Shown here in pieces: positions 2,871-43,191 of a stretch of DNA of 64,000 bases. A program made the translations under genes and the position numbers. The DNA is from Isoetes taiwanensis. Lineage: Eukaryota > Streptophyta > Lycopodiopsida > Isoetales > Isoetaceae. The notes beneath the pieces are model-generated. The model ran no database searches and was not told the origin of the DNA. It worked only from the letters and a program-made list of their open reading frames with translations. The stretch is taken from contig JAJEKV010000041.1 of assembly GCA_021234155.1 (NCBI GenBank), positions 11,356,689-11,420,688 of the forward strand. The letters are read 5' to 3'. Numbering within the stretch: the first letter of the stretch is position 1; every line of letters begins with the position of its first letter.

Positions 2871-3208
2871 TATTTATCTTTCTCGGTTTTGCATGACAGC
2901 TTGGTTCCTTCTTTCATCTTTATTTCAAATTCACATATCTCAGTCTTTACACCTACCAACTCTGTGTAATCCCATGCAAATACATCTTTCCACTCTTCAA
3001 AGAATTCTTGTAATGATGCTTCTTTCTGAGTTTTAAACATATCACCTAGAAACAGAGTTCTAATCTCATCATTCTTGGTTATAGTCAGTTCTTTTACCTC
3101 TTTCTCTTGCTGAGCATCTATTACCAGAATGGGATGTAGTTGTGCAATCTCTTCATGTTCCAACTCTTCTTCTTTGATAGCTCCTTCAGCAAGGTAATCT
3201 AGCAGCAC
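2871..3208 (-). pseudogene. Linker between RNase H-like domain and RT, element A
   Basis: About 110 residues (LLDYLAEGAIKEEELEHEEI through VGVKTEICEFEIKMKEGTK) correspond to the linker seen in elements C and D between the upstream RNase H-like domain and RT. It includes FFEEWKDVFAWDY, a segment typically found just N-terminal to plant Gypsy RT. It has no catalytic role that I can name. The frame ends close to the RT frame, so a shift separates the two. Confidence 0.7.
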
Positions 3209-3575
3209 ACTTCTGCATAGGGCATCTCGCTTTCACAATTCTCATCCCTTGGTATGTAATTCAAACTCCATTTGTTAAATTTGCTCAACCAGCTCAAAGC
3301 TTCCTCTTCAAAGAATAGCATTTCTTGGTTCTTGGCTTGATACTCACCATTGATTTTTGCTTTTGCATATTAGTTGAGAGTCACCATAAATGGTTACTTC
3401 TGGGTCAAATCCCTAATGAAATAGCTTCCTCGTAAGCCAGCCAAAAGGGCTCAGACTCAGCCATATTGGAGGTTATACCAACATGTATCCTGCCAACCTT
3501 TGAAAGCAATGCTAGCACAATCTTTGATTATAGCTGAAGAAGATGCCACCTAGCTTAACGGATATTCCACCATCA
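3209..3575 (-). pseudogene. Decayed RNase H-like domain upstream of RT, element A
   Basis: Reading minus across several frames gives IWFDGGISVKL near 3575-3545, then SSAIIKDCASIAFKGW, then KNQEMLFFEEEALSWLSKFN and WSLNYIPRDENCESE near 3230. These line up with the better preserved domain in element C (LWFDGGVSKKL to FNEEADAL). The middle catalytic segment is unreadable through shifts and stops. It lies between protease and RT, as in C and D. Confidence 0.65.
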
Positions 3576-4580
3576 AACCAGATGACACCCAATTCTTGTG
3601 ATCTCGAAAGTTAGAAGAGTAAGAGGGTACCAACTCATCCAGGAGATCCATGGCTAGAGGTAGTTTGTAGAATCCCATGGTGCTTTGTTCAAGCATTTCT
3701 TCTTCCAAAAAACTACAGATATTAGTACTCCCTGACTTGTTGTAGAGGGTTGTCCTTTTAACTCCATCAGATATGGTACACTCTCCTTTTGACCATACAG
3801 GTCTGGCATCAACTGTAGACATCCATCTCCTGCCAAGTAACAAGTCATAGATGTCAGTAGTGCTGTTGCCAAACTCGAAAGCAACTACAAAAAAACTAGC
3901 TTGAACCACAATCCCTTGGTTTCCCTTTGGTACACTGTAACAACACCTAAAGGCATGATTTTAGCATTAGAAAATGATCTCAACACCATTGGTGAAGGTT
4001 TTGTGATCTTCAATCCACATTTTTGCATTATATGCTGAGGCATCACATTCAAAGAAGAACCACCATCTAATAAAACTCTAGGAAGTTGATGAGTACCAAT
4101 CTTTGCTGAACATGTAAAGGCACCAGGGTCTTCCTCTTCCTGAGTCAGCACAATTTCAGAAGCAAAAGACACTGTTTCTACATTACTAGAGTTGATCACT
4201 TTCTGCCTATAGCTAGGAGCAATTCTCAACAGAGTCAATAAATCCAAAGTTACCTTAGAATTCTTAAGAATATGTTCAAAGTCATCCAAATCTTTATCTT
4301 TTCTCTGAAATCTCTCAGCAGGAGCAGGAGCTATTACCTGACAAGCTTGATCTTCTTTTTGAATTTCCTTCTCTTGGCACTGACCTGAGCTTGCATCCTT
4401 CTTGTTCTCAGCCATAGCTCTAGTTTGTACTGCCATGACTGCTTCCTGGAATGCTTCTTCTTCCAAGAATCTCACAGATGCACTAGTCTCAGCCTTTTTG
4501 CCTTGTTCTTGTTTCTCCAAATACTCCTTCACCAAGCACCTATCCTCATAATGGCCAATCTCCTTGCAGAACTTGCACAC
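3576..4580 (-). pseudogene. Gag zinc knuckle and protease of element A
   Basis: This is the upstream end of what survives of element A. It opens with the CCHC knuckle CKFCKEIGHYEDRC at about 4578-4537, a nucleic-acid-binding motif of Gag. A charged linker follows, then a retropepsin-like protease with LLDGGSSLNVMP near 4070, where DGG replaces the usual D-S/T-G. It continues in another frame through YDLLLGRRWMSTVDARPVWS. The N-terminal Gag is missing: the element is cut at 4580, where plus-strand integrase of another element begins. Confidence 0.8.
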
Positions 4581-5462
4581 TGGGCTTGATTTTATAGGAC
4601 CTGTAGATCCACCTTCTTCTGCACAACATCAGTACATCCTTGTGGCCACTGATTACTTTACAAAGTGGGCTGAAGCTGTTCCCCTGAGACAAGCCAATGC
4701 ATATACCACTGCCAGATTTATCCATGAGAATATATGTGCCAGGTTTGGCATACCTTTCAAACTCATATCTGATAGGGGTAGTCAGTTTTTAAACGATGTC
4801 ATAGCCACATTGCTAGCAACTCTCAAAGTGAGACACTCCAAGAGCTCGTCTTATTATCCTCAAGGTAATGGCCAAGCAGAATCTACAAACAAAGTGCTCA
4901 AGACTATTCTCAAGAAGACTATTAGTGTTTCAAAGAAAGATTGGTACATGAAGTTACATGATGCTTTATGGGCTTATAGAGTTACTACCAAAATCTCAAC
5001 CAAGCATACACCTTTCAGCCTGGTTTATGGAGTAGAATCTATTGTCCCAATAGAATTAGAACTTCCCTCCCTGAGGATGGCCTTGAAACTAAATTTGGAA
5101 ATGGAGGAAGCACTCAAAGAAAGATGTATACGACTTATGCAGTTGGAAGAGCAATGCACATGAAGTGAAAAATGCAATATTATTAAAAAGCCAAAGATCT
5201 GGCAGCATTCAAGGCTACACATAAATTACAAGGTACATTGAGAGATGGGGAATTAGTTTTAAAATGGAATAAAGCAAAAGAGGATTGTGCCAGCAAATTT
5301 GAAGAGCTGTGGGAAGGTCCTTTTGAGGTTGCGAACAACCGGGCCGTGATTCTTCTTGGCCGAGGTCCATATCGAAGGGAGGGTCTTACCAAATCCTATC
5401 AATATTCTCGTGATTTGAAGAGGTAACGGCAACAACATGTTGCCCTTAGTTTGTTTGAATAA
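4581..5462 (+). pseudogene. Integrase core and pol C-terminus of Gypsy element B
   Basis: This is a Tat-like integrase from GLDFIGP to the pol end, lacking its zinc finger and everything upstream. The catalytic D (GLDFIGP), D (LISDRGSQF) and E (GQAESTNK) are all present, as are LHDALWAYRVTT and FSLVYGVESIVPIE. The frame breaks near 5160. The tail is recognisable as KFEELWEGPFEV, then LPNPINILV in a shifted frame, then QQHVALSLFE ending at a TAA at 5460-5462. It is clearly related to element A but not the same copy. The orientation is opposite to A and the junction is abrupt at 4580/4581. Confidence 0.85.
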
Positions 5463-6190: not shown

Positions 6191-6306
6191 ATATCATTCA
6201 TCATCATCTGCTCCATGCTTGGCCTGATTTCCATGAAGAACTCTGTTTCTCAAACATATGCATCATATCCACATTGCCATTCTTTTTTCCATCATGGCAA
6301 TCTTCT

Positions 6307-8153
6307 GCACTTTGAAGTCATCAGGGGTTTGGCAAACCAGTCTCCCTCTTTTTTTTTAGCATGATGCTGCCACTCATGGCAGCATAGAAGAGCCTAGACA
6401 TATCTGACATTTGGCTCATTGATTGCATGAGGAAATATGAAGACCATTGGCTTTCAGAAGCATTTGAAGACTCAGTCAAACAGCAAAAGGAACAAATGTT
6501 TAGAAGAACCAAAGAAGGACATTCACTTGGTTATTTCAAAATTGGAGGATGGACAAGGTTTTTGATTATCATCCAAAGTACTAGAGATCACTCCTACAAG
6601 ATTTGAAGTCACTTGTTGAAGAATTGCGAGGCATGAGCATGGTATGAAGTCTATTTCATGATTTGAGCATTTGAAGTTTGGATTCTTGATGTTGTAAGAG
6701 TTTTGCCTAGCCAATTTCCCATTTTTATAGCCATTTGACTCATATTCCACCTTCCTATCTCTTGTCATCTCTACACTTCATACTATCATTTCCCATACAC
6801 CTATATTTCATCATACCATACCTTGGGATTGTTCAAATCACTTTTCCCTAGTCAAAATGAGCCACACACTCATGATCCATCCATACATTCATAAGTTTAC
6901 CAAAAGAAACTAAAAAAGTTGAGGCTTTACCCTACTTTCTCTCACTTCAAAAAACCTAGGGTTAAAATGATCACTAGGTTGAGGAAAGGTTGTCACCTAT
7001 GTCTAGTGGCAAAGAATTCTTTTTTATGCCCACATCATCACTCACAAGTCCACATTACTATTCATTACACACGTGTCAACCCACATCATTTTCATTCCAT
7101 ATCCACCTCATTAAAACATTTTTGACTAGGGAAAAGTTCTTTTTGTCATCCAATGGTACCACATCAATTACATTTGCCACCTCACCAAAATTTATGCCTA
7201 GTCACCCCCCTTCACTCTTTTGACAAAAAATCAAAGTGCTCCAAATCATCTTTTGACAAAACCACACTGGTAGCCCTTGTGAAAATATGCCACGGCACAA
7301 AAGATTTTCAAATTGAGTTGTTTGGACCTCCTTAAGCTACTTCTTGGGAAGCGTGCCTTCTTTGGAAAAATGGCAAAACCTACCTACATCTATTCCCCCC
7401 ATCTATATACCCTCTCATTTCATGAGTATGCGTCCCCCAGCGTGCCGGTCAAAAACACGAGCGGCTGGCGTGGGAGGAGAACCGCAATTAGTTAAAAGCT
7501 TGAGAAGTCTATTTATATCCTTGTTTAACTTTTGCTCTTGGCACGTGGGATATATCCGGAAGAAAGCAAGAACCCTAAATTTTGCCAACCAAAAACGGAA
7601 TTTTTGGTGTATCCGACCACTAATTCACATCATTACCTTCGAATCCACCTACGCAACATCAAGAAAACCAAATAGAAGCTAAAAGACAAAGGATCTGGCC
7701 GTAGATTCAAGAATTGCAACAGAACAGGGCCTTTTTAAAGAGGGCAAATCTCTATGCGAAAGTTAGGGGCTTTTACGCTAAATTGAAGACTACTGGTGTG
7801 AAGTACATGCAAAAGTGATCTCCTGCTGCGGATTCGACCCTCCTTGCTGGTCAAATTGATGGATTGATCGGTAAAAGGCGACCATAAACCTGTCAGTTTT
7901 TGAGAAATATGCTTTGCTCATTAACTGTGGGCATCGAAAATGATGTGATTCCTCAGATTTGATATATCAAGTGAATGAAAATCCAATTTGGTAATATCTC
8001 TCCCTTTGAAATTGTTGAAATTCCAAAAAGTAGCTCTAAAATCGCTTCTATATTGCATAAAGACTAAAGAAAATTCAAAAAATAGCTTATTTTGTTTCCT
8101 TCAACTAGTATGTATATCAGTCAATACTGTTCTATGGTTAATAAAGAAGAAAC
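6307..8153 (+). repeat. R repeat, plus orientation, copy 1 (probable long LTR, truncated)
   Basis: The copy begins at TGCACTTTGAAGTCATC, the same start as at 16934, and follows the pol and tandem array of element B, so a 3' LTR is the simplest reading. A TATA-like TATTTATATCC lies near 7512-7522. Downstream comes an AACATCAAGAAAACCAAATA leader-like stretch. The copy ends abruptly at 8153, where it meets an inverted copy. No protein is supported; the 60-110-codon open frames here recur in every copy and look incidental. Confidence 0.6.
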
Positions 8154-10808
8154 TCACTAGACAATTGATGTGATATATGTGCAAAATATATTCAGAAGTC
8201 AGATATCATTTGGTACTTTAAAACACACATAAACTATTTGGGTCAAAATTTGGTCAATGCCCTCAGAGAGCTTCGCATTTGAATTCTTTTAGGAATATCT
8301 TTTTTGAATGAAACCACCTGGGAAGGTATTAAAGGGTCTAAAGGGTCACATGCAAACGCTAATACAGTCCAGAGATAAAGATATTTTGGAACTATGGGGT
8401 TTTATGAACTGACAGACTGTGTCTTTTGCCACAGAGAATGCTTTTTCAAATTTTATCGTTATTTAAATAGGAAGTCTATGTAAAAGGAACATTGGAGATA
8501 TCCTAAGTCAACCCTTGTTATTTATACCACTAGAGCTTCAGGAGTTCAACTATAGAGCATACAAAGGTGCAGTTAAAATGATGAGAAACGGAATGGTATT
8601 ATGATGAGCAGAGTTTCTTCTTTATTAACCATAGAACAGATTGGATCGATATATATACTAGTTGAAGGAAACAAAATAAGCTATTTTTTGAATTTTCTTT
8701 AGTCTTTATGCAATATAGAAGCGATTTTAGAGCTACTTTTTGGAATTTCAACAATTTCAAAGGGAGAGATATTACCAAATTGGATTTTCATTCACTTGAT
8801 ATATCAAATCTGAGGAATCACATCATTTTCGATGCCCACAGTTAATGAGCAAAGCATATTTCAAAAAACGAGACGGGTTTATGGTCTTTTTTTACTGATC
8901 AACGATCAATTTGACCAGCAAGGAGGGTCGAATCCGCAGCAGAGATCACTTTTGCATGTACTTCACACCAAGTAGTCTTCAATTTAATTTAGCGTAAAAG
9001 CCCCTAACTTTCGCATAGAGATTTGCCCTCTTTAAAAAGGCCCTGTTCTGTTGCAATTCTTGAATCTACGGCCAGATCCTTTGTCTTTTAGCTTCTATTT
9101 GGTTTTCTTGATGTTGCAGAGGTGGATTCGGAAGGTAATGATGTGAATTAGTGGTCGGATACAGCCAAAAAATTCCGTTTCTTGGTTGGCAAAAATTTAG
9201 GGTTCTTGCTTTCTTCAGCGGATATATCCCACAGGCCAAGAGCAAAAAGTTAAACAAGGATATAAATAGACTTCTCAAGCCGTTTTAACTAATTGCGTGG
9301 TCTCCTCCCACGCCAGCGTCGGCTCGTGTTTCGACCTGGCACGCCAGGGGGGACGCCACTTGGCGGGAAATGAGAGGGTATATAGATGGGGGGGAATAGA
9401 TGTAGGTAGGTTTTGCCATTTTTTCCAAAGAAGGCACGTTTCCCAAGAAGTAGCTTAAGGAGGTCCAAACAACTCAATTTGAAAATCTTTTGTGCCAGGT
9501 GGCATATTTTCACAAGGGCTACCAGGTGGTTTTGTCAAAAGATGATTTGGAGCACTTTGATTTTTTGTCAAAAGAGTGAAGGGGGTGACTAGGCATAAAT
9601 TTTGGTGAGGTGGCAAATGTACTGCTGATGTGGTACCATTGGATGACAAAAAGAACTTTTCCCTAGTCAAAAATGTTTTAATGAGGTGGATATGGAATGA
9701 AAATGATGTGGGTTGACACGTGTGTAATGAATAGTAATGTGGACTTGTGAGTGATGATGTGGGCATAAAAAGAATTCTTTTGCCACTAGACATAGGTGAC
9801 AACCTTTCCTCAACCTAGTGATCATTTTAACCCTAGGTTTTTTGAAGTGAGAGAAAGTAGGGTAAAGCCTCAACTTTTTTAGTTTCTTTTGGTAAACTTA
9901 TGAATGTATGGATGGATCATGAGTGCAGGGAAAAAATTAGTAGCTAATCTTAGCTAAATGGCGAAATTTTAGACTTATTGGAAAAAAAAAACGGCTAAAC
10001 TATGGCCCTTTTTGGGCCAAAAAAAAAGAAAATATTAGCCAAGTCTATTTCACGCCCCACCTCTATTTCATCCGACTTTAGCTAATCGTAAGAAAGTATA
10101 AGTGTCAAAAATTGGAGAGTTTAGCCAAAACTTAGAAGCTTTTACTTCAAATTTTGATGTACTTTAGCCAAATTATTTTATAACCTTTATATATATTATG
10201 ATTAGTTAATATTTAGGCTTAAATTAGTGCAAAATAGCCAAATGATAGAAGATTTTTTTATTTTTAAATATAAGTTTAGCCAAATGTAAGAAAGTAGAGG
10301 TGGCAAAATTTGAAAAGATTAGCTAAACGATAGAAGATTTCATCTCAACTGTTGGCATACTTTAGCCAAGTCTATTCCACCACTTTGGATTTAGAAGTTC
10401 CTTATTTTTTTCCCTGCATGAGTGTGTGGCTCATTTTGACTAGGGAAAAGTGATTTGAACAATCCCAAGGTATGGTATGATGAAATATAGGTGTATGGGA
10501 AATGATAGTATGAAGTGTAGAGATGACAAGAGATAGGAAGGTGGAATATGAGTCAAATGGCTATAAAAATGGGAAATTGGCTAGGCAAAACTCTTACAAC
10601 ATCAAGAATCCAAACTTCAAATGCTCAAATCATGAAATAGACTTCATACCATGCTCATGCCTCGCAATTCTTCAACAAGTGACTTCAAATCTTGTAGGAG
10701 TGATCTCTAGTACTTTGGATGATAATCAAAAACCTTGTCCATCCTCCAATTTTGAAATAACCAAGTGAATGTCCTTCTTTGGTTCTTCTAAACATTTGTT
10801 CCTTTTGC
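8154..10808 (-). repeat. R repeat, minus orientation, copy 2, interrupted by a MITE
   Basis: This is the reverse complement of the R unit, entered at its far end (ACTAGACAATTGATGTG). It runs to the CAAAAGGAACAAATGTTT position that in copy 1 lies near 6490-6505. With copy 1 it forms a large inverted repeat with arms of about 1.7 kb around a spacer near 8154-8640. A 491-bp hAT-type MITE interrupts it at 9926-10416. The join to the next R fragment at about 10808 uses the short shared string CTTTTG. Confidence 0.7.
9926..10416. mobile_element. hAT-type MITE inside R copy 2
   Basis: The termini are CAGGGAAAAAA and TTTTTTTCCCTG, flanked by perfect 8-bp duplications CATGAGTG at 9918-9925 and 10417-10424. 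Other R copies have this site uninterrupted. The TIR start CAGGG and the 8-bp target duplication are hallmarks of the hAT superfamily. The inside is AT-rich, with many TTAGCCAA/TTAGCTAA words and no coding capacity, so it is non-autonomous. Confidence 0.88.
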
Positions 10809-11455
10809 CACAGAGAATGCTTTTTCAAATTTTATCGTTATTTAAATAGGAAGTCTATGTAAAAGGAACATTGGAGATATCCTAAGTCAACCCTTGTTAT
10901 TTATACCACTAGAGCTTCAGGAGTTCAACTATAGAGCATACAAAGGTGCAGTTAAAATGATGAGAAACGGAATGGTATTATGATGAGCAGAGTTTCTTCT
11001 TTATTAACCATAGAACAGTATTGACTGATATACATACTAGTTGAAGGAAACAAAATAAGCTATTTTTTGAATTTTCTTTAGTCTTTATGCAATATAGAAG
11101 CGATTTTAGAGCTACTTTTGGAATTTCAACAATTTCAAAGGGGAGAGATATTACCAAATTGGATTTTCATTCACTTGATATATCAAATCGAGGAATCACA
11201 TCATTTTCGATGCCCACGTTAATGAGCAAAGCATATTTCGAAAAAAAGCGACGGGTTTATGGTCACTTTATCGATCAATCCATCAATTTGACCAGCAAGG
11301 AGGGTCGAATCCAGCAGGAGATCACTTTGCATGTACTTCACACCAAAGAGTCTTCAATTTAGCGTAAAAGCCCCTAACTTTCGCAGATAGAGATTTGCCC
11401 TCTTTAAAAGGCCCCTGATTCATTTGCAATTCTTGAATCTACGGCCGAGATCCAC
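10809..11455 (-). repeat. R repeat, minus orientation, copy 3 (partial)
   Basis: This is part of the minus R unit, from CCACAGAGAATGC to TGAATCTACGGCC. It is joined at AGATCC to the leader of element C (ACCCCGGTTCTTGGGAACTATGG). Its orientation is opposite to that expected for a 5' LTR of C, so it is not simply the partner of the R copy at 15930. Confidence 0.65.
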
Positions 11456-12600
11456 CCCGGTTCTTGGGAACTATGGCTCCTAGACGAAATCTTTGAGACA
11501 TCTGAACATCTTTGAGGTACAAGATAATGCAGAGGTACAAGCTACACCCCAAGGTATGTCCACACATCTCAACAAATTGCGTGAATCTAAACACCCAGCG
11601 TCTGCTCAATACTTTGAACTAAATGTTCCCATTCCTGTTCCTACATTTGACTCTCTACTATGAGTGCTAACAATTTTCTCAAGGTTTTGATGAGTATTAT
11701 CAAGAATATGGCCACAAGAAAGGTACCAAGTTCATCAATTCAAGAAGTGGTTCAAAATGATGAAGTAAGAGCTTGGTTGGAATATGTGATAAGTGATGGA
11801 ACTAACACATGGGATGAGATCATCAAAAGATTCCTAGCAAGGTTTGGAAAGGTTTATGATCCTCAAGATCTTGTTTTTGAATTACAAACCTTCCATATTA
11901 GAAATGGTGAGACTATTCATCAATATGTAGAAAGATTTCATGTGTATCTCACCAAATGTCAAACTAATCAAGTGCCTCACCATACCTTGCATCTTGTTGC
12001 ATCTTTTATAAGAGGTTTGACTGGCAGACCGAGAGTACACAGGAAAATGCTTAAGATTTACAAGCAGGAGGGATTTGCTACCATTCACAAGGCTTTTAAC
12101 AAGGCTATTGAAATTGCTGATGTGCTTTCTTCCTTGCCAGATGATGTTTATGCCACTAATGATCCTTTCTTCCCAGATTTTGAACAAGAGCATATGGGTC
12201 CAGATGCCATACCGGTTTATCTTCGTTAGGAAAGACAAAAAGAAATTCAAGACAATCGAAGAATCAGATAGCATCGCTGCTAATACCAAAATAGATGTTG
12301 ACAAGGTTCTTTGAGGCCCTACTTGAAGTGACCAAACAACTCCAGGAATTGAAGGCTTCAAGACCGAAAAGAAGAACTTATCCTCCATGTGCACATTGCA
12401 TGAGAGACACTCATTCTTCCGAGATTTGTTGGTGTGGGCTTTGTCTTAAATGCAATAAGAGAGGCCATTATGGTAAAGAGTGCCTGCCTGTTTTTTTTGC
12501 AAAGCCACGGGACACTATGAAGATAGATGTAGTGTTAAAGAGTATTTTGCTAGACAAGAAAAGCAAAATCACTGAAGCACCGCTTCAATTAAATATTTGT
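11456..12600 (+). pseudogene. Gag region of Tat-like element C
   Basis: This is a structural Gag remnant. The candidate start is the ATG near 11472 (MAPRRN), but frames shift repeatedly. The best continuous part, about 11720-12200, matches the plant Retrotrans_gag pattern (VRAWLEYVISDGTNTWDEII, then FHIRNGETIHQYVERF, then SFIRGLTGRPRVHRKM). Two CCHC zinc knuckles follow: CLKCNKRGHYGKEC near 12445-12485, and KATGHYEDRC near 12500-12530 in another frame. They bind element RNA. Element D carries the same region inverted. Confidence 0.8.
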
Positions 12601-13484
12601 CTGAAACTTCTTATCCTATAAGGTTTGTGCAGGAATCTGAAGAGCAGGAAGAAATTATGGCTGTGCACACCAGAGCTATGATGAAAGACAAGGAGGCAAC
12701 TCGAGAAGAAACAGAAGCAAGTGCTCTAGAAGGTAGAGGGAATAAAAACAAACCTACAGAAGAAGGTAAACAACTGATACCTCCTCTGCCCTGTCAAAAG
12801 TTTCCGAGGAAAGATAAAGACAATGATGAATTTGAGACTCTTATGAAAAGTTCAAAAATCAGTGTAGACCTACTCACATTGTTGAGAATTGCTCCTACTT
12901 ACAGAAAAAAGATGCTTAGTTTGACTCAGGAGGAACAAGTTAACCTCACACAAGAGGAGCAGATTGCTTTTACAAACCACATTGAAGAACAAATGCTGAT
13001 ACAAGATGAGCATGACCCAGGTGCCTTCACTTGTGCTGCCAACATTGGTAAAAGAGCCTTGTCCAAGGTATTACTAGATGGTGGTTCACCTTTAAATGTC
13101 ATGCCACATCATGTGATGAGACAATGTGGCCTAGAAGTTGACAAAAAAGCCCCAATGGTACTTAAGTCCTTCTCCAATTCGAAAATAAACCCCATAGGGA
13201 TTGTAAGCAAGGTACCTATAGATATTGAAGGGATTGTAGTGGCTGCTAATTTTGTAGTGGTTGCTTTTGAAGGTATGAATGAAAAATCAGATATTTATGA
13301 CCTCCTTTTAGGAAGAAGATGGTTGTCCACAGTAGATGCTAGGCCTATATGGTCAAAAGGTGAGTGTACCATTACTGATGGCAAAAGGACAGTCACTATT
13401 TTACAACAAGTTGGGGAAATTGAATCTTTTAACTATATTGAAGAAGATTTGTTGATGTCTAACCAACTGGTGAGTATGAAGTAA
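12601..13484 (+). pseudogene. Protease region of element C
   Basis: An open stretch holds a charged linker (MAVHTRAM, then KFPRKDKDNDEFETL) and then a retropepsin-like protease that cleaves the polyprotein: VLLDGGSPLNVMPHHVMRQC near 13070-13130, and YDLLLGRRWLSTVDARPIWS near 13295-13355. DGG replaces the canonical D-T/S-G in all three elements. A short tail links it to the RNase H-like domain in the next frame. Confidence 0.8.
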
Positions 13485-13486
13485 TT

Positions 13487-13960
13487 ATGGCTCAGCTTGA
13501 TATAGCAAAGAGACCATCTGACAAGTGCGAGACACTCAAGGAAAGTAGTAGTGCTTACTTATGGTTTGATGGTGGTGTTTCTAAGAAACTAAGCATAGCA
13601 TCATCTGCTGCTATTCTCAAAGACAAGTCCAGCAAATTAATGGCAAAAGTAGGCAGAATCCATTTGAATTCCACTTCTAACATGGCAGAGTATAAAGCAT
13701 TGATTGTGGATTGCGTGAGGCTAAGCACCTTGGTATTACTGACATTATTGTGTTTGGTGATTCCCAACTTGTGTGTAGACAGATCCTAGGAGATTATCAG
13801 ACCAAGAACAAGGATATGCTCATACTTAGAGATCAAGCTTTAGAAGAATTATCAGGATTTTCAACTTGGGAGCTGCATCATATAACTAGAGAGTTCAATG
13901 AGGAAGCAGATGCCTTATGCAAGAGTGTCTTGCTTGAACATCTAGCAGAAGGTGCTATTA
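13487..13960 (+). pseudogene. RNase H-like domain between protease and RT, element C
   Basis: This is an RNase H fold of the plant reverse-transcriptase-like (RVT_3, archaeal-type) group. The expected acidic residues are visible in order: D in LWFDGGVSKK, E in NMAEYKALI, D in IVFGDSQLVCRQ and D in FNEEADALCKSVL. One frameshift near 13715 splits it. Tat elements are known for an extra RNase H of this kind, normally placed after RT and before integrase. Here it lies upstream of RT. It would degrade the RNA strand of the RNA/DNA hybrid during replication. It is followed directly by the linker LAEGAIKEEELEEEELKQLH and then RT. Confidence 0.8.
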
Positions 13961-15300
13961 AAGAAGAAGAGCTTGAAGAAGAGGAACTCAAACAACTTCA
14001 TCCTATTCTGGTAATCAATGCTAGTACTGAAAAACAAGTAAGAGAAATCCAAATAGAGAAAAATGGTCAGAATAGAGTCTTGTATGTGGGAGATATGTTT
14101 AGAGAAGAAGATGAATGCACATTAACTAAATTTTTTAATGAATGGAAGGATGTGTTTGCTTGGGACTATGATGAATTAGTTGGTGTAGATAAGAACATTT
14201 GTGAGTTTGAGATAAAAGTTAAGGAGGGTATCAAACAAACGTGGATGCAAAAAACTGAGAAGAATCAATGTATCCTTGCTTGACTTAATCAGAGAAGAAT
14301 TACTTAGAATGAAAGATGCAGGTGTGATCACTGAAATATCAAATCCAGAATGGTTGTCATGCATTGTGCCTGTTGAAAAAAAAAACAAAACTATTAGAAT
14401 TTGCATTGACTATAGGGATCTGAATAAAGCCACTGTTAAAGATTGCTATCCTTTGCCTTTTTTGGAAGAAGTTTTACATGCGATTGGTGGAAGGAGATCT
14501 ACTCTTTTCTTAGATGGATTCTCGGGGTTTAATCAGATCTCACATCAAGCTAGAAGACCAGCCAAAGACAGCTTTCATTACACCATGGGGAACTTTTGCC
14601 ATGAAAAGAATGCCTTTTGGTTTGATGAATGCTCCAGCAACTTTTCAAAGAACAATGGACGCTATATTCAAGGACATGCCTTCAACTGCATTCAGGGTTT
14701 TCCTAGATGATCTTTGCTTGGGATCAGCCTTAAGGGATCATTTTAACTATCTAACTAAAATATGTGTTATGTGCAGAAAAGGAGGTGTGAGTTTAAATCC
14801 CAAAAATGCGTGTTTCTCCGCTCCAAGGAGGATTGTGGGCCATGAAGTATCTTCCAAAGGGATTCAAGTAGCTGAAAGTAAGGTGGATGCCCCGAAAAAA
14901 TTAGCACCACCTAAAAACCCAAGTAGGGAAGTAAAAGTTTTTGGGATGGTAAGTTTTCGAGAGGATGTATGTCCCACATTTCTCTAATATTGTGGCTCCT
15001 ATATCTGATCTCACCAAGGTTGGCAAGTATACCAAACATGAGAGCAAGCTAATTATGGTTGAATGGACTCGTATTACATGCCAGCTTGCTTTTTGATAAT
15101 ATTATACAAGCCATCTCCAATTCTCAGACATTGAAACCTCCCGATACATCCAAATCCTTTGAGGCTTATATCATTATAACCAAAAGGGTCAGTAGGATTA
15201 GTTCTGCTGCAAGAAGATGAGGTGGTAACTTTTGCCAAAGAAAATTTGGTCTAACACCTGAAATGAGATATCCAAGACTTGAAAAAGTGCAGCAGCCCTT
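13961..15300 (+). pseudogene. Reverse transcriptase and degenerate RNase H of element C
   Basis: After the linker (FFNEWKDVFAWDYDELVGVD) come the RT motifs: NPEWLSCIVPVEKKNKTIRI, then CIDYRDLNKATVKDCYPLPF, FLDGFSGFNQI, PFGLMNAPATFQRTMD and VFLDDLCLG (FLDD box). At least four frame shifts occur, several at CAG/CTG sites where the inverted copy D reads cleanly. The RT-linked RNase H (KPPDTSKSFEAYIIITK, about 15125-15185) lacks the first catalytic Asp, as in A. Confidence 0.82.
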
Positions 15301-15499
15301 ATGTTCTTGATTGATAGACGGGGACATCTCATTCAAAAAGAGCCATACTCAAGTGTACATGAAACAAAATCCTTTATCCTTGATGTTCTCAAAGAAGCGA
15401 CCCTAAGGCTAAGATATGTAGATGGGCTTGTAAAATCCAAGCTTATGATATTGTTGTCAAAGTGATCACTTTAGTTAATGATCCTAGTTCATACTTGAC

Positions 15500-15929
15500 T
15501 AATATCTTGTTCTGGACAGAAGATGAAGAAGGTTTGGCTAATGATGTTCAAGAAGATGCGGATGCGCATGTAAATCTTGTTGCGGGGAGGAAGATTGGCA
15601 AGAAGAGATAAGAAGGTTTCGAGAATTTGAATGAAGTACCGTAAGGCCTCAATTCTAGCCAAAAAGAAGGTTCAAAGAAAAAAATGCAACAAGTATAGAC
15701 TAATTGGAGATGTGTTATGCAGGTATGACAAGGAAGGCATTATCCTAAGGTGTGTTGACAAAGAAGAAGCTAGATTAGTGGTGGAAGCGTGCCATGAAGG
15801 GGTATGTGGTGGACACTTTGCAGCAGATACCACAGCAAAGAAGATTTTGAGGTTTTTGGCAGAAGGATTCTTCAGCCAGCTGCATTAACTGCCATAACTT
15901 CCCCAGGACCCTTCCAGACCTAGGGGCTT
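15500..15929 (+). pseudogene. Integrase N-terminus of element C, truncated
   Basis: The best part is DVLCRYDKEGIILRCVDKEE then LVVEACHEGVCGGHF (about 15710-15820), the start of the HHCC zinc finger. Coding decays after KKILRF. At about 15929 the sequence passes straight into the middle of an R repeat (GGGGCTTTTACGCT). The integrase core is absent. Element D stops at the identical point. Confidence 0.8.
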
Positions 15930-16933
15930 TTACGCTAAATTGAAGACTACTGGTGTGAAGTACATGCAAAAGTGATCTCCTGCTGCGGATTCGACCCTCC
16001 TTGCTGGTCAAATTGATCGTTGATCAGTAAAGCTGACCATAAACCTGTCCGTTTTTTCGGAAATATGCTTTGCTCATTAACTGTGGGCATCGAAAATGAT
16101 GTGATTCCTCAGATTTGATATATCAAGTGAATGAAAATCCAATTTGGTAATATCTCTCCCTTTGAAATTGTTGAAATTCCAAAAAGTAGCTCTAAAATCG
16201 CTTCTATATTGCATAAAGACTAAAGAAAATTCAAAAAATAGCTTATTTTGTTTCCTTCAACTAGTATGTATATCAGTCAATACTGTTCTATGGTTAATAA
16301 AGAAGAAACTCTGCTCATCATAATACCATTCCGTTTCTCATCATTTTAACTGCACCTTTGTATGCTCTATAGTTGAACTCCTGAAGCTCTAGTGGTATAA
16401 ATAACAAGGGTTGACTTAGGATATCTCCAATGTTCCTTTTACATAGACTTCCTATTTAAATAACGATAAAATTTGAAAAAGCATTCTCTGTCAGTTCATA
16501 AAACCCCATAGTTCCAAAATATCTTTATCTCTGGACTGTATTAGCGTTTGCATGTGACCCTTTAGACCCTTTAATACCTTCCCAGGTGGTTTCATTCAAA
16601 AAAGATATTCCTAAAGAATTCTCAAAAGAAAGTCACGAGGGCATTGACCAAATTTTGACCCAGTCAGTTGTGTGTTTTTAAAGTACCAAATGATATCTGA
16701 CTTCTGAATATATTTTGCACATATATCACATCAATTGTCTAGTATACTATTGCATTGATTTCAGGAAAAAATTCGATTTATATTGCTCAGAATCTAAAGG
16801 TTAGCACTGTGCATTTTTTTCCAATTTGGGAAACTGGTTCTAACAGATTCCTTGAAGGTTGTTTCTGCAAATTTTATGCATAGAGTGGTTGCCTAAAGCA
16901 ACCTGGAGGTCCTATACCATTCCAGTTGAGGGA
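15930..16933 (+). repeat. R repeat, plus orientation, copy 4 (3' half)
   Basis: This copy is entered in mid-unit at GGGGCTTTTACGCT and runs further than any other plus copy, through CACATCAATTGTCTAGT and a unique tail to GTTGAGGGAT. The next R copy starts immediately at 16934, which makes a head-to-tail R-R arrangement. Near 16903 the tail has TGGAGGTCCTATACC, which resembles a tRNA-Gln-type primer site only in its first 11 bases. Confidence 0.6.
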
Positions 16934-19213
16934 TTGCACTTTGAAGTCATCAGGGGTTTGGCAAACCAGTCTCCCTCTTTTTTTTAGCATGATGCTGCCA
17001 CTCATGGCAGCATAGAAGAGCCTAGACATATCTGACATTTGGCTCATTGATTGCATGAGGAAATATGAAGACCATTGGCTTTCAGAAGCATTTGAAGACT
17101 CAGTCAAACAGCAAAAGGAACAAATGTTTAGAAGAACCAAAGAAGGACATTCACTTGGTTATTTCAAAATTGGAGGATGGACAAGGTTTTTGATTATCAT
17201 CCAAAGTACTAGAGATCACTCCTACAAGATTTGAAGTCACTTGTTGAAGAATTGCGAGGCATGAGCATGGTATGAAGTCTATTTCATGATTTGAGCATTT
17301 GAAGTTTGGATTCTTGATGTTGTAAGAGTTTTGCCTAGCCAATTTCCCATTTTTATAGCCATTTGACTCATATTCCACCTTCCTATCTCTTGTCATCTCT
17401 ACACTTCATACTATCATTTCCCATACACCTATATTTCATCATACCATACCTTGGGATTGTTCAAATCACTTTTCCCTAGTCAAAATGACCCACACACTCA
17501 TGATCCATCCATACATTCATAAGTTTACCAAAAGAAACTAAAAAAGTTGAGGCTTTACCCTACTTTCTCTCACTTCAAAAAACCTAGGGTTAAAATGATC
17601 ACTAGGTTGAGGAAAGGTTGTCACCTATGTCTAGTGGCAAAAGAATTCTTTTTATGCCCACATCATCACTCACAAGTCCACATTACTATTCATTACACAC
17701 GTGTGAACCCACATCATTTTCATTCCATATCCACCTCATTAAAACATTTTTGACTAGGGAAAAGTTCTTTTTGTCATCCAATGGTACCACATCAGCAGTA
17801 CATTTGCCACCTCACCAAAATTTATGCCTAGTCACCCCCCGCGACTCTTTTGACAAAAAATCAAAGTGCTCCAAATCATCTTTTGACAAAACCACCGGTA
17901 GCCCTTGTGAAAATATGCCACCTGGCACAAAAAAGATTTTCAAATTGAGTTGTTTGGACCTCCTTAAGCTACTTCTTGGGAAAGCGTGCCTTCTTTGGAA
18001 AAAAATGGCAAAACCTACCTACATCTATTCCCCCCATCTATATACCCCTCTCATTTCCGCCAAGTGGCGTCCCCTCGGGCGTGCCGGTCGAAACACGAGC
18101 CGACTGGCGTGGGAGGAGACCACTAATTAGTTAAAACGGCTTGAGAAGTCTATTTATATCCTTGTTTAACTTTTTGCTCTTGGCCCGTGGGATATATCCA
18201 TTGAAGAAAGCAAGAACCCTAAATTTTTGCCAACCAAGAAACGGAATTTTTGGTCAGATCCGACCACTAATTCACATCATTACCTTCCAATCCACCTCCG
18301 CAACATCAAGAAAACCAAATAGAAGCTAAAAAGACAAAGGATCCGCCGTAGATTCAAGAATTGCAAACGTAAGCGTGGCCTTTTTAAAGAGGGCAAATCT
18401 CTATGCGAAAGTTAGGGGCTTTTACGCTAAATTGAAGACTCTTGGTGTGAAGTACATGCAAAAGTGATCTCCTGGCCGCGGATTCGACCCTCCTTTTGCT
18501 GGTCAAATTGATCGTTGATCGAAGTGACCATAAACCCGTCCGTTTTTTCGAAATATGCTTTGCTCATTAAGCGTGGGCATCGAAAATGATGTGATTCCTG
18601 CATTTGATATATCAAGTGAATGAAAATCCAATTTGGTAATATCTCTCCCTTTGAAATTGTTGAAATTCCAAAAAGTAGCTCTAAAATCGCTTCTATATTG
18701 CATAAAGACTAAAGAAAATTCAAAAAATAGCTTATTTTGTTTCCTTCAACTAGTATGTATATCAGTCAATACTGTTCTATGGTTAATAAAGAAGAAACTC
18801 TGCTCATCATAATACCATTCCGTTTCTCATCATTTTAACTGCACCTTTGTATGCTCTATAGTTGAACTCCTGAAGCTCTAGTGGTATAAATAACAAGGGT
18901 TGACTTAGGATATCTCCAATGTTCCTTTTACATAGACTTCCTATTTAAATAACGATAAAATTTGAAAAAGCATTCTCTGTGGCAAAAGACACAGTCTGTC
19001 AGTTCATAAAACCCCATAGTTCCAAAATATCTTTATCTTCGATCAGATTAGCGTTTGCATGTGACCCTTTAGACCCTTTAATACCTTCCCGTGGTTTCAT
19101 TCAAAAAGATATTCCTAAAGAATTCGAACAAGTCTGCAGAGGGCATTGACCAAATTTTGACCCGGTACCAGGTGTTTTTAAAGTACCAAATGATATCTGA
19201 CTTCTGAATATAT
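16934..19213 (+). repeat. R repeat, plus orientation, copy 5 (longest)
   Basis: This is the most complete plus copy, about 2.3 kb. It starts at TGCACTTTGAAGTCATC, has TATTTATATCC near 18150, and continues through GGGGCTTTTACGCT to CTTCTGAATATAT. It then flips into the minus copy at 19214. It is probably a long LTR of the Tat-like family. No coding sequence is supported. Confidence 0.6.
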
Positions 19214-20018
19214 CGATCGTTGATTTGGTACTTTAAAAGCACACAACTGACTGGGTCAAAATTTGGTCAATGCCTGGAGGTCAAGAGAGCTTCGCTATGT
19301 AATCTGCCGAATATCTTTTTGAATGAAACCACCCGAAGGTATTAAAGGGTCTAAAGGGTCACATGCAAACGCCAATACAAATGTAGATAAAGATATTTTG
19401 GAACTATGGGGTTTTATGAATCGACTGTGATCGTGGTCTTTTGCCACAGAGAATGCTTTTTCAAATTTTATCGCTATTTAAATAGGAAGTCTATGTAAAA
19501 GGAACATTGGAGATATCCTAAGTCAACCCTTGTTATTTATACCACTAGAGCTTCAGAGTTCAACTATAGAGCATACAAAGGTGCGCTTAAAATGATGAGA
19601 AACGGAATGGTATTATGATGAGCAGAGTTTCTTCTTTATTAACCATAGAACAGTATTGACTGATATACATACTAGTTGAAGGAAACAAAATAAGCTATTT
19701 TTGAATTTTCTTTAGTCTTTATGCAATATAGAAGCGATTTTAGAGCTACTTTTTGAATTTCAACAATTTCAAAGGAGAGATATTACCAAATTGGATTTTC
19801 ATTCACTTGATATATCAAACTGAGGAATCACATCATTTTCGATGCCCACGCTAATGAGCAAAGCATATTTCTAAAAAAACGGGACAGTGTTTATGGTCGC
19901 CTTTTATATCGATCAACGATCAATTTGACCAGCAAGGAGGGTCGAATCCGCAGCAGGAGATCACTTTTGCATGTACTTCACACCAGTAGTCTTCAATTTA
20001 GCGTAAAAGCCCCTAGGT
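19214..20018 (-). repeat. R repeat, minus orientation, copy 6 (partial)
   Basis: This is the reverse complement of the R 3' half, ending at AGCGTAAAAGCCCCTA, where the inverted element D begins. It is the mirror image of the C-to-R junction at 15929/15930. Confidence 0.65.
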
Positions 20019-20480
20019 CTCGAAGGGTCCTGGGGAAGTTATGGCAGTTAATGTAAATTGGTCAAGAATCCTTACGCCAAAAAAACCTCAAAATCTTCTT
20101 TGCTGTGGTATCTGCTGCAAAGTGTCCACCACATACCCCTTCATGGCACACTTCCACCACTAATCTAGCTTCTTCTTTGTCAACACACCTTAGGATAATG
20201 CCTTCCTTGTCATACCTGCATAACACATCTCCAATTAGTCTATACTTGTTGCATTTTTTCTTTGAACCTTTTTTTTGGCTAGAATTGAGGCCTTCGGTAC
20301 TTCATTCAGCTCCGCAAACCTTCTTATCTCTTCTTGCCAATCTTCCTCCTCGCACAAGATTTACATCTCAGACTGCATCTTCTTGAACATCATTAGCCAA
20401 ACCTTCTTCATCTTCCCCGTCCAGAACAAGATATTAGTCAAGTATGAACTAGGATCATTAACTAAAGTGATCACTTTGAC
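20019..20480 (-). pseudogene. Integrase N-terminus of element D, truncated
   Basis: This is the mirror copy of the C integrase start, with the HHCC opening on the minus strand around 20100-20160. Coding is more broken than in C. The truncation point relative to the polyprotein is the same as in C. Confidence 0.75.
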
Positions 20481-20639: not shown

Positions 20640-21984
20640 GCCGTGCACTTTTTTCAAGTCTTGGATATCTCATTTCAAGGTGTTAGACCAAATTTTGCCG
20701 GGCAAAAGTTACCACCCTCATCTTCTTGCAGCAGAACTAATCCTACTGACCCTTTTGGTTATAATTGATATAAGCCTCAAAGGATTTGGATGTATCAGAG
20801 GTTTCAAGAATGTAATTGGAGATGGCTTGTATAATATTATCAAAAGCAAGTCGGGCATGTCCGAGTCCATTCAACCATAATTAGCTTGCTCTCATGTTTG
20901 GTATACTTGCCAACCTTGGTGAGATCAGATATAGGAGCCACAAAGATTAGAGAAATGTGGGACATACATCCTCAGAAAACTTACCATCCCCAAAAAACTT
21001 TTTACTTCCCTAACAGTTTTAGGTGGTGCTAATTTTTTCAGGGCATCCACCTTACTTTCAGCTACTTGAATCCCTTTGGAAGATACTTCATGGCCCAGCA
21101 ATCCTCCCTTGGAGCAGAGAAACACGCATTTTTTGGGATTTAAACTCACACCTCCTTTTCTGCACATAACACATATTTTAGTTAGATAGTTAAAATGATC
21201 CCTTAAGGCTGATCCCAAGCAAAGATCATCTAGGAAAACCCTGAATGCAGTTGAAGGCATGTCCTTGAATATAGCGTCCATTGTTCTTTGAAAAGTTGCT
21301 GGAGCATTCATCAAACCAAAAGGCATTCTTTTCATGGCAAAAGTTCCCCATGGTGTAATGAAAGTCGCTTTTTGGCTGGTCTTCTAGCTTGACAGAGATC
21401 TGATTAAACCCTGAGAATCCATCTAAGAAAGAGTAGATCTCCTTCCCTGCAACTGCATGTAAAACTTCTTCCAAAAAAGGCAAAGGATAGCAATCTTTAA
21501 CAGTGGCTTTATTCAGATCCCTATAGTCAATGCAAATTCTAATAGTTTTGTTTTTTTTTTCAACAGGCACAATGCATGACAACCATTCTGGATTTGATAT
21601 TTCAGTGATCACACCTGCATCTTTCATTCTAAGTAATTCTTCTCTGATTAAGTCAAGCAAGGATACATTGATTCTTCTGAGTTTTTGCATCACAGGTTTG
21701 ATACCCTCCTTAACTTTTATCTCAAACTCACAAATGTTCTTATCTACACCAACTAATTCATCATAGTCCCAAGCAAACACATCCTTCCATTCATTAAAAA
21801 ATTTAGTTAATGTGCATTCATCTTCTTCTCTAAACATATCTCCCACATACAAGACTCTATTCTGACCATTTTTCTCTATTTGGATTTCTCTTACTTGTTT
21901 TTCAAGATTAGCATTGATTACCGTAATAGGATGAAGTTGTTTGAGTTCCTCTTCTTCAAGCTCTTCTTCTTTAATAGCACCACC
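20640..21984 (-). pseudogene. Reverse transcriptase and degenerate RNase H of element D
   Basis: Minus-strand RT reads better than C over its core: NPEWLSCIVPVEKKNKTIRI, CIDYRDLNKATVKDCYPLPF, LHAVAGKEIYSFLDGFSGFN, then PFGLMNAPATFQRTMDAIF, VFLDDLCLG and LGHEVSSKGIQVAESKVDAL. One shift near 21370 breaks the frame. The FLDD box is at about 21230-21240. The linker (FFNEWKDVFAWDYDELVGVD) is intact. The linked RNase H remnant is degenerate. Confidence 0.83.
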
Positions 21985-22400
21985 TTCGCTAGATGTTCAA
22001 GCAAGACACTCTTGCATAAGGCATCCGCTTCCTCATTGAACTCTCTAGTTATATGATGCAGCTCCCAAGTTGAAAATCCTGATAATTCTTCTAAAGCTTG
22101 ATCTCTAAGTATGAGCATATCCTTGTTCTTGGTCTGATAATCTCCTAGGATCTGTCTACACACAAGTTGGGAATCACCAAACACAATAATGTCGTAAGAA
22201 TACCAAGGTGCTTAGCCTCCGCAATCCTCGCAATCAATGCTTTATACCGCCATGTTAGAAGTGGAATTCAAATGGATTCTGCCTACTTTTGCCATTAATT
22301 TGCTGGACTTGTCTTTGAGAATAGCAGCAGATGATGCTATGCTTAGTTTCTTAGAAACACCACCATCAAACCATAAGTAAGCACTACTACTTTCCTTGAG
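21985..22400 (-). pseudogene. RNase H-like domain between protease and RT, element D
   Basis: The visible core is MFGDSQLVCRQILGDYQTKN through LHHITREFNEEADALCKSVL (about 22184-21995), with two of the four acidic residues. The first part (LMVVFLRN, the shifted form of the LWFDGG strand) lies near 22375-22345 and is out of frame. Position and order are the same as in C. Confidence 0.75.
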
Positions 22401-23310
22401 TGTCGCAGACTTGTCGATGGTCTCTTTGCTATATCAAGTTGAGCCATAATTACTTCATACTCACCAGGTTGGTTAGACATCAACAAATCTTCTTCAATAT
22501 AGTTAAAAGATTCAATTTCCCCAACTTGTTGTAAATAGTGACCGCCCTTTGCCATCAAGAATGGTACACTCACCTTTTGACCATATAGGCCTAGCATCTA
22601 CTGTGGACAACCATCTTCTTCCTAAAAGGAGGTCATAAATATCTGATTTTTCATTCATACCTTCAAAAGCAACCACTACAAAATTAGCAGCCACTACAAT
22701 CCCTTCAATATCTATAGGTACCTTGCTTACAATCCCTATGGGGTTTATTTTCGAATTGGAGAAGGACTTAAGTACCATTGGGGCTTTTTTGTCAACTTCT
22801 AGGCCACATTGTCTCATCACATGATGTGGCATGACATTTAAAGGTGAACCACCATCTAGTAATACCTTGGACAAGGCTCTTTTACCAATGTTGGCAGCAC
22901 AAGTGAAGGCACACCGGTCATGCTCATCTTGTATCAAGATTTGTTCTTCAATGTGGTTTGTAAAAGCAATCCGCTCCTCTTGTGTGAGGTTAACTTGTTC
23001 CTCCCCGAGTCAAACTAAGCATCTTTTTTTCTCGTAAGTAGGAGCAATTCTCAACAATGTGAGTAGGTCTACACCGATTTTTGAACTTTTCATAAGAGTC
23101 TCAAATTCATCATTGTCTTTATCTTTCCTCGGAAACTTTTGACAGTATGGGAGGAGGTATCGGTTGTTTACCTTCTTCAGAGGTTTGTTTTATTCCCTCT
23201 ACCTTCCGAGCACTTGCTTCTCGTTTCTTCTCGAAGTTGCCTCCTTGTCTTTCATCATAGCTCCGGTGTGCACAGTACCATAATTTCTTCCCGCTCTTCA
23301 GATTCTGCAC
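22401..23310 (-). pseudogene. Protease region of element D
   Basis: VLLDGGSPLNVMPHHVMRQC and YDLLLGRRWLSTVDARPIWS are intact in one 141-codon frame (22937-22512). The upstream linker is scrambled near 23110-23310, where C reads cleanly; the differences there are again at CTG/CAG sites. Confidence 0.78.
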
Positions 23311-23315: not shown

Positions 23316-24060
23316 TTATAGGATAAGAAGTTTCAGGAAAAATTTTACGTATAAAGTGGGTTTCAAAGTAGTTTTTGCTTTTTTCTTGTCTAGCAAAATA
23401 CTCTTTAACACTACATCTATCTTCATAGTGTCCCCGTGGCTTTGCAAAAAATACGACAGGGCACTCTTTACCATAATGGCCTCTCTTATTGCATTTAAGA
23501 CAAAGCCCTGTACCAACAAATCTCTAAGAATGAGTGTCTCTCATGCAATGTGCACATGGAGGATAAGTTCTTCTTTTCCGGTCTTGAAGCCTTCAATTCA
23601 CGGAGTTGTTTGGTCACTTCAAGTAGGGCCTCAAACAACCTTGTCAACATCTATTTTGGTATTAGCAGCCGGGCTTATCCGATTCTTCGGTTGTCTTGAA
23701 TTTTTTTTGTCTTTTCGAACAAAGATAAACCGGTATGGCATCCGGACCCATATGCTCTTGTTCAAAAACGGGAAGAAAGGATCATTAGTGGCATAAACAT
23801 CATCGGCAAGGAAGAAAGCACATCAGCAATTTCAATAGCCTTGTTAAAAGCCTTGTGAATGGTAGCAAATCCCTCCTGCTTGTAAATCTTAAGCATTTTC
23901 CTGTGTACTCTCGGTCTGCCAGTCAAACCTCTTATAAAAGATGCAACAAGATGCAAGGTATGGTGAGGCACTTGATTAGTTTGACATTTGGTGAGATACA
24001 CATGAAATCTTTCTACATATTGATGAATAGTCTCACCATTTCTAATATGGAAGGTTTGTA
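23316..24060 (-). pseudogene. Gag C-terminal half of element D
   Basis: On the minus strand FHIRNGETIHQYVERFHVYL, SFIRGLTGRPRVHRKM and AFNKAIEIADVLSSLP are recognisable, followed by a damaged zinc-knuckle region. The Gag N-terminus is gone: at 24060/24061 the sequence switches to the LTR of a different element. Confidence 0.8.
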
Positions 24061-24673
24061 CCCGGTCAACATGAAGAAAAAGAAGTAAAACCATTGAAGA
24101 AGGGGGAAAAAGGTCAATGGCCCAGATTCATTTGTGCTAGTTGTTAGAATCCAAGGGCCCATATTAAGTTGTTGAGAAAAAAACAAAATTGGTTAAAAAG
24201 AAGAAGAGGACAAAAAAGAAGGGATTAATGAGGTGTAAAAAGAGAGTGTCAAGATGATGACACATGGATGGCCAAGATTTGTTAAAAAAAAAAATTATTA
24301 TAAATATCTTGAGGAGACTTGCTCTCCTCCTCTTTGGCTCACGGAATCACATGGAGGAAATGAGGGGTGTGAGGCCTCTTTCCCCATGTTGAGGACATGA
24401 GTAGCGCTCTCTTGAAGGGCTTCATTTGTATTTCCATCTTCCTTATTTGAAATAAAGTGTGGTGCACCATTCTTTCTACATTTGCTTTCAATTTTTACTT
24501 GCTCCATTCCATTCACGTTTTGCAATTTTGCCCCCTTCATATCCATATCTTTACTCACCTTTCTTTCTTGATTTCTACCCATTTGCCTTGAAATTCAGTT
24601 TGCCCATCTTCTTTCCATATCTTTCCTTTTTCCTTTTGACGTTTGCGGGAGTGTGGGGAAAACCCGGCAAACA
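24061..24673 (+). repeat. 5' LTR of a short LTR retroelement (truncated by about 20 bp)
   Basis: Apart from one base near its left edge, the sequence reads the same by eye as 26037-26649. It ends AAAACCCGGCAAACA. It lacks the first 20 bases present in the 3' LTR. A TATA-like TTATTATAAATATC is at about 24296-24309. The left edge abuts Gag of element D. Confidence 0.85.
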
Positions 24674-26016: not shown

Positions 26017-26649
26017 TGTTGACCGGGTTTTTGGCACCCAGTCAACATGAAGAAAAAGAAGTAAAACCATTGAAGAAGGGGGAAAAAGGTCAATGGCCCA
26101 GATTCATTTGTGCTAGTTGTTAGAATCCAAGGGCCCATATTAAGTTGTTGAGAAAAAAACAAAATTGGTTAAAAAGAAGAAGAGGACAAAAAAGAAGGGA
26201 TTAATGAGGTGTAAAAAGAGAGTGTCAAGATGATGACACATGGATGGCCAAGATTTGTTAAAAAAAAAAATTATTATAAATATCTTGAGGAGACTTGCTC
26301 TCCTCCTCTTTGGCTCACGGAATCACATGGAGGAAATGAGGGGTGTGAGGCCTCTTTCCCCATGTTGAGGACATGAGTAGCGCTCTCTTGAAGGGCTTCA
26401 TTTGTATTTCCATCTTCCTTATTTGAAATAAAGTGTGGTGCACCATTCTTTCTACATTTGCTTTCAATTTTTACTTGCTCCATTCCATTCACGTTTTGCA
26501 ATTTTGCCCCCTTCATATCCATATCTTTACTCACCTTTCTTTCTTGATTTCTACCCATTTGCCTTGAAATTCAGTTTGCCCATCTTCTTTCCATATCTTT
26601 CCTTTTTCCTTTTGACGTTTGCGGGAGTGTGGGGAAAACCCGGCAAACA
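26017..26649 (+). repeat. 3' LTR of the short LTR retroelement
   Basis: It begins TGTTGACCGGGTTTT and ends AAAACCCGGCAAACA, an imperfect terminal inverted repeat with the standard TG...CA ends, 633 bp in all. Apart from the missing 20-base edge and one base, I saw no difference from the 5' LTR. Confidence 0.85.
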
Positions 26650-30470: not shown

Positions 30471-31550
30471 TAATGTGATTATTTTTTATCTTGAATCTAT
30501 GTTTTTTTTTATAACAACCTATTCAATTGTTTTAGAGATATATAGTCTATGGTTTCGGGAATTGTTATTTTTACATCCATATCAAATCCCCCTGGAACCC
30601 CCTGTTATGCTACATATTCTAAACGAGATGCACCCTAGACTACCACATACAGTCGTCGGATTCGTCGATCCTACGACCCAGATCGTATGTTGAGGCCTCT
30701 GGGCACCTCTCATTTCGCTTATAGATGCATCCTAGACTACCACAGTCGTCGGATTCGTCGATCCTACACCTCATTTATGATTGGAGGCACCTATGATTTT
30801 GAAGTATGAAATACGATTTCACCCAGCTCACTGGATCGTATGAAATACGATTTCACCCAGCACCCAATGAGCTAATGTGATTATTTTTTATCTTGAATCT
30901 ATGTTTTTTTTTATAACAACCTATTCAATTGTTTTAGAGATATATAGTCTATGGTTTCGGGAATTGTTATTTTTACATCCATATCAAATTCCCCTGGAAC
31001 CCCCTGTTATACTACATATTCTAAACGAGATGCACCCTAGACTACCACATACAGTCGTCGGATTCGTCGATCCTACGACCCAGATCGTATGTTGAGGCCT
31101 CTGGGCGCCTCTCATTTCGCTTATAGATGCACCCTAGACTACCACAGTCGTCGGATTCGTCGATCCTACGAGCCAGATCGTATGCTGGGGCCTCTGGGCA
31201 CCTCATTTATGATTGGAGGCACCTATGATTTTGAAGTATGAAATACGATTTCACCTAAGGTTTTGAGGTAATATCGAACCTCTATACGTAGAATATGAAA
31301 TACGAGGGTTCGAACCTCTACCAAAAGAACTCAATGTCCTAATAAGAGTACTTTAATCAATGCACCCAATGAGCTAATGTGATTATTTTTTATCTTGAAT
31401 CTATGTTTTTTTTTTTATAACAACCTATTCAATTGTTTTAGTGATATATAGTCTATGGTTTCGGGAATTGTTATTTTTACATCCATATCAAATCCCCCTG
31501 GAACCCCCTGTTATTTTGCTACATATGGCTCTTGAATCTTTTTAAGAGGA
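30471..31550. repeat. Tandem 400-500-bp units, three copies
   Basis: Units starting GCTAATGTGATTATTTTTTA recur at 30471, 30871 and 31372. Each contains GTCGGATTCGTCGATCCTAC once or twice. In the later units GGGTTCGAACCTC matches the pol III box B consensus, so a tRNA-related SINE-like origin is possible but unproven. Copy 2 holds the equivalent array at 48333-49280. Confidence 0.8.
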
Positions 31551-32690: not shown

Positions 32691-32931
32691 GGGCTATATG
32701 TGTGTGTTTAACTCTCATCGCAATATTTCTTTCAATGGAGGGGGTGGAGGGGTTTTGAGGAGGAAATAATTATGACAAAGGAGGATGCGTAGGATACCCA
32801 ATTTGTATAATGTAGGAGATGCATATGCGATCAAATAAAAACGAAGGTCACATCCCATTTTATTGCATCGTCTTTTGAAGAAACCAATGTGCTCTCAAAA
32901 TACAAAATGAAAGTATACATATTCAAATTAT

Positions 32932-34165: not shown

Positions 34166-34227
34166 TGCACAAACAACAACCTCAAATGGAAATGAACCTA
34201 AACCAAGAAAAAGAAAACAACAACAAA

Positions 34228-41690: not shown

Positions 41691-43191
<1,501 letters not shown>

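Follow-up and report, generated by a model that had tools for sequence, protein, structure and literature searches.

A relocated RNase H ahead of reverse transcriptase in two degraded, probably Tat-type Ty3/gypsy families of Isoetes taiwanensis: a real but already known arrangement

Tat elements can carry, besides the native RNase H that follows their reverse transcriptase (RT), an additional RNase H of archaeal type (aRH), which according to the excerpts of PMC8775202 used here has become fixed at several positions across Tat lineages. In the commoner arrangement, structure #1, the aRH lies after RT, and this form is widespread in land plants (PMC10508981). It includes Ogre and Retand of flowering plants, in which the aRH sits between RNase H and integrase, and is also known from hornworts, ferns, clubmosses and gymnosperms. 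Structure #2, represented by clusters E, F, G and J, places the aRH inside pol, ahead of RT; every aRH-bearing structure is reported to have a degraded native RNase H (PMC10508981). The passages of PMC6317226 on which we draw give an aRH between protease and RT as the mark of TatI, from clubmosses, and TatII, from gymnosperms, and place both in the Tat clade of the non-chromovirus OTA branch of Ty3/gypsy. The type amounts to a natural experiment on the retrovirus-like dual RNase H: as published, the native domain has decayed whatever the location of the added one. Retroviruses similarly combine one degraded RNase H, the tether, with an active one, although their added domain differs in source and position and the likeness is convergent (PMC10508981).

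The window analyzed here is a stretch of 64,000 nucleotides of I. taiwanensis DNA. Its elements A, C and D are very probably dead copies of two related Ty3/gypsy families of Tat type, with the order Gag, protease, aRH, RT, degenerate RNase H and integrase, as in TatI/TatII and structure #2; by phylogeny, too, they would be expected to belong to Tat. An archaeal-type RNase H would have been captured ahead of RT and most likely took over RNA cleavage during reverse transcription, a predicted role that the cited papers also favor, while the native RNase H lost its catalytic residue(s) and most likely persisted as a structural tether only. Compared with TatI/TatII as described in the PMC6317226 excerpts, the domain order shows no difference, the aRH being found between protease and RT, and the degenerate native RNase H after RT and before integrase. 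Structure #2 agrees in having the aRH ahead of RT in pol and a degraded native RNase H, but its single open pol frame (PMC10508981) is absent from the window copies, which are broken. Ogre and Retand share the archaeal-type RNase H and the degraded native domain, whereas in A, C and D the aRH precedes RT, an order that sets them apart from structure #1.

Because this order has been published as TatI/TatII and as structure #2, the arrangement in the window is one already described. The relocated RNase H is real but known, and the window adds two further degraded families to the described type. The first-pass annotation of this DNA had started from the premise that the position was new, which does not hold: the same place is published for TatI/TatII (PMC6317226, in the passages cited) and for structure #2 (PMC10508981). 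Its statement that the Tat aRH lies after RT agrees with the commoner structure #1. Of the functional hand-over to a new position that it proposed, the hand-over with decay of the old RNase H fits the data, and the novelty of the position falls away.

Element C lies on the plus strand. Eight pieces of it were scanned against Pfam, which identifies, in order, Retrotrans_gag, a weak aspartyl protease, RVT_3, RVT_1 and an integrase zinc-binding domain. The capsid part of gag spans 11651-12226 (Retrotrans_gag, E = 1.1e-10). The protease ORF at 12576-13481 contains the motif VLLDGGSPLNV and matches gag-asp_proteas below the Pfam cut-off (E = 0.0053), with further support from tblastn to A and D. 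It is followed by the aRH in two frames (about 13565-13926), by an acidic linker that extends into the start of RT (13927-14280), and by RT itself, also in two frames (about 14372-14840; RVT_1 with E = 3.1e-06, below cut-off, and 8.7e-11). The first part of the degenerate native RNase H, at 15092-15286, is recognized by tblastn to residues 209-272 of the A RT-RNase H ORF with 45% identity. The piece 15384-15608 has no Pfam match, and the zinc-binding domain lies at 15754-15852 (Integrase_H2C2, E = 0.00064, below cut-off). The Pfam scan of pieces found no integrase core in C or D, only the zinc-binding part. At 16 bits, short of the Pfam cut-off of 21, a match between EutQ and the linker piece of C (E = 0.011) was put down to chance.

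The aRH of C is about 120 residues long and is split by a single frame change at about 13705. In the first frame the RVT_3 match takes in profile positions 2-49 (E = 0.0026, below cut-off), and the second frame supplies positions 50-122 (E = 3.6e-12). When solved structures were searched at E up to 1, the C-terminal piece matched RNase HI/RNase H1 chains: 4e19 (2.6e-11), 3aly (ST0753; 1.6e-07), 2ehg (1.7e-07) and 3hst (Rv2228c; 8.4e-05), which are all four distinct sequences reported. The N-terminal piece has no solved-structure match at the same threshold. The D, E, D and D residues lie in LWFDGG, NMAEYKA, FGDSQL and NEEADAL, and together with an Arg they make up a D-E-D-R-D set. This Arg, in ITREFNEEADAL, aligns to VPREENKEADRL of 3aly. 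In the parts of PMC5348765 cited here, 3aly is called an archaeal aRNH, and Arg at this place denotes archaeal-type RNase H where His denotes the fungal/metazoan type. Taken together, the RVT_3 matches, the PDB matches and the position of the Arg indicate that the upstream domain of C and D is an archaeal-type additional RNase H. It is placed between protease and RT by profile in C and D and by tblastn in A; a tblastn search of the window with aRH pieces (E up to 0.01) matched C, D and A upstream of RT only, with none behind RT. The first-pass interval of 13487-13960 thus contains the domain but is wider than its actual extent, which runs over two frames. All four motifs that it had listed for the D, E, D, D residues of C are present in the translation, and its assignment to an RNase H fold is borne out by RVT_3 in C and D and by RNase HI chains in C, with A giving no profile match.

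Seven pieces of element D, on the minus strand, were scanned against Pfam with gag left out, and two of them have no match. The others give the same order as in C: protease (22605-22868; gag-asp_proteas, E = 0.0017, below cut-off), RVT_3, RVT_1 and zinc-binding domain (20077-20184; Integrase_H2C2, E = 2.5e-05, just below cut-off). The broken aRH spans 21984-22430, where RVT_3 matches 22193-22008 (E = 1.3e-08) and tblastn to C gives 90% and 99% identity; its NMAEYKA motif, which holds the Glu, is not intact. RT at 21087-21564 is divided between two frames (RVT_1, E = 2.1e-07 and 3.2e-13). For the gag of D the evidence is tblastn only, and the native RNase H of D was recognized solely by visual inspection of the translation. 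Self-comparison reveals that C (11883-16691) and D (24060-19223) form an inverted pair with 94% identity over 4897 columns. Between C 11883-15921 and its partner in D there are 179 substitutions and 51 gap runs, 49 of which are no longer than 3 bases. C and D being such a pair, the window holds two lineages, A and C/D, rather than three.

Element A, also on the minus strand, has about 70% DNA identity to C and D in the stretches that align. Six of its pieces, plus one from the neighboring fragment B, were scanned against Pfam, and three A pieces have no match. RVT_1, RT_RNaseH_2 and rve occur in sequence, as in Ty3/gypsy elements. The protease region (3691-4493) has no Pfam match and is identified by tblastn to C (E = 1.2e-77). 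The aRH, at 3172-3583, is broken over several frames; it has no Pfam match in the scanned pieces and is recognized solely through tblastn to C (3.4e-09 and 2.2e-05), with its four motifs IWFDGG, NMAE, YGDSQL and DALC in different frames. RT occupies 2289-2769 in two frames (RVT_1, E = 2.6e-20 on 2666-2289; the piece reaching 2769 gives 0.031, below cut-off). The first part of the degenerate native RNase H lies at 1854-2075 (RT_RNaseH_2, E = 1.3e-12; RT_RNaseH weakly), and the zinc-binding end and core of integrase at 859-1272 (rve, 6.3e-13; Integrase_H2C2, 0.00055, below cut-off). No capsid match was found in A. The claim that C, D and A share the order Gag, protease, RNase H, RT, degenerate RNase H and integrase therefore stands for the order, with integrase reduced to its zinc-binding part in C/D and no capsid match in A. 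The accompanying count of three copies from two subfamilies is right in that A and C/D share the order, although C and D, as an inverted pair, make up a single lineage. Separately, an integrase core fragment at 4552-5426 (+; rve, E = 1.6e-11) adjoins A on the opposite strand at the expected position of gag, with 72% protein identity to the A integrase over 181 residues.

The RT-linked RNase H lacks its first catalytic Asp, as had been claimed from the sequence at first reading: Ser occupies this column in A (column alignment) and Ile in C (by eye). The Glu is retained in A; a third Asp was not seen, by eye only. Relatives were tallied for 120 listed of 324 found. The first Asp column is not covered in 72 of the 120; of the 48 that cover it, 46 lack the Asp (40 F, 4 Y, 1 C and 1 I) and two keep it, so that loss of the first Asp is shared by relatives, none of those listed being known to carry an aRH. 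The Glu column in the same 120 contains 89 gaps, 27 E, 2 D and 2 Q. Those lacking the first Asp include P0001, which carries a Taxus chinensis name (39% identity, Y at that column), and P0002 (PITA_28554; 38% identity, F). P0107 (32% identity) also bears a PITA label, which in both cases we take to stand for Pinus taeda. Mere decay of dead copies, with no hand-over, would be in keeping with the stops and frame changes that run throughout C, D and A. As an explanation of the missing Asp it is nonetheless quite improbable, given that the residue is also missing from nearly all covering relatives among the 120 listed, P0001 and P0002 included, and that degradation of the native domain is published for every Tat structure with an aRH (PMC10508981).

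Protein-level constraint on the upstream domain is apparent from A and C. A ratio of 0.26 obtained for the C-terminal piece of the aRH was discarded, as it took in out-of-frame stretches, and dS was saturated in three of seven pieces; for these reasons, codon positions were used instead, in blocks hand-picked as in frame and with an even spread as the null. Over 101 codons of the aRH (59% protein identity), differences at codon positions 1/2/3 number 34/18/60 (chi-square p = 6e-6). The corresponding counts are 28/18/50 over 94 codons of the linker (p = 2e-4) and 10/6/41 over 77 codons of RT (p = 4e-9). The third-position excess shows that the aRH was kept as protein while the two families diverged, or at least for some of that time, and the bias between A and C thus indicates that this domain evolved as a protein. 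These counts bear on the idea that an RNase H fragment, from the host or from a LINE, was inserted by chance in one old element, outside the polyprotein. RVT_3 also takes in plant LINE and cellular RNases H, and A, C and D are all broken, both of which such an accident could accommodate. Yet the domain occupies the same site in two families with the identity and codon-position bias given above, and a similar linker continues from it into RT, which leaves chance insertion even less probable than decay. Least probable of all is that the upstream domain arose by duplication of the native RNase H and then moved forward: both domains are RNase H-like, but the upstream one matches RVT_3 and RNase HI chains and has its Arg at the archaeal-type position (PMC5348765, in the parts cited), against RT_RNaseH_2 and, weakly, RT_RNaseH downstream.

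An aRH captured ahead of RT, the reading we prefer, is also supported by the same order and a similar aRH-RT linker in A and C/D. The linker is acidic and about 110 residues long, and the 94 codons that start at 13960 are 64% identical in A and C. A tentative suggestion from this conservation, which we consider unlikely, is that the linker would hold the aRH to RT on the latter's N-terminal side, from where it might cleave the hybrid from the polymerase side. No studied RT-RNase H is known to have such a geometry.

The searches for relatives retrieved none with aRH and RT together, whether in proteins, in the viral_contigs scan or among the 120 listed. The homologous-protein search confirmed none of the 180 candidates (E = 1e-3) for the C piece that comprises the C-terminal half of the aRH and the linker, nor any of the 948 for the C protease ORF. 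The viral_contigs scan with the A RT-RNase H piece gave three stretches that fit a pattern, none of which was confirmed, and RVT_3 (PF13456) appears in none of the 120 listed relatives. Two of these 120 contain, after RT, a GGH motif as in the integrase zinc-binding domain. In P0029 it lies 174 residues past EK.A, the motif assumed to hold the RNase H Glu, so that an aRH would scarcely fit between them, but P0029 may have no aRH at all. The distance in P0018 was not used, its anchor probably being other than the catalytic Glu.

No intact copy with this order was found in the window, and self-comparison recognized no simple LTR pair. A second copy of the repeat at 10802-11376 lies in the same orientation at 19438-20015, and an inverted one at 15921-16491. 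Repeated units in both orientations (6306-8155, 8423-9079, 10802-11453, 15921-16713, 16935-18800 and 18413-20015) lie around and between C and D, whose integrase breaks off near the start of such a unit; in C, the repeated sequence starts at 15921. Two direct repeats of 614 bp (24060-24673 and 26036-26649), 99.8% identical and 1.4 kb apart, reach the edge of D on one side and resemble the LTRs of a short element that inserted at D recently. Further along, 30860-37345 and 48619-55700 form a direct duplication in two blocks, each with about 97% identity. Inside it, the ORF pieces 32932-34258 and 50713-52064 (-) presumably belong to a class III plant peroxidase, judging by motifs. A second direct duplication, of 42124-44403 and 56692-58977, has 93% identity. 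The ORF pieces at 44382-45130 (+) look by their motifs like the terminal RNase H part of a Ty1/copia element, and the piece at 38648-39031 (-) presumably derives from a LINE reverse transcriptase, which it resembles in a motif. Finally, a long GA/CT simple repeat lies within 41540-41866, where the frames read RERERE and SLSLSL.
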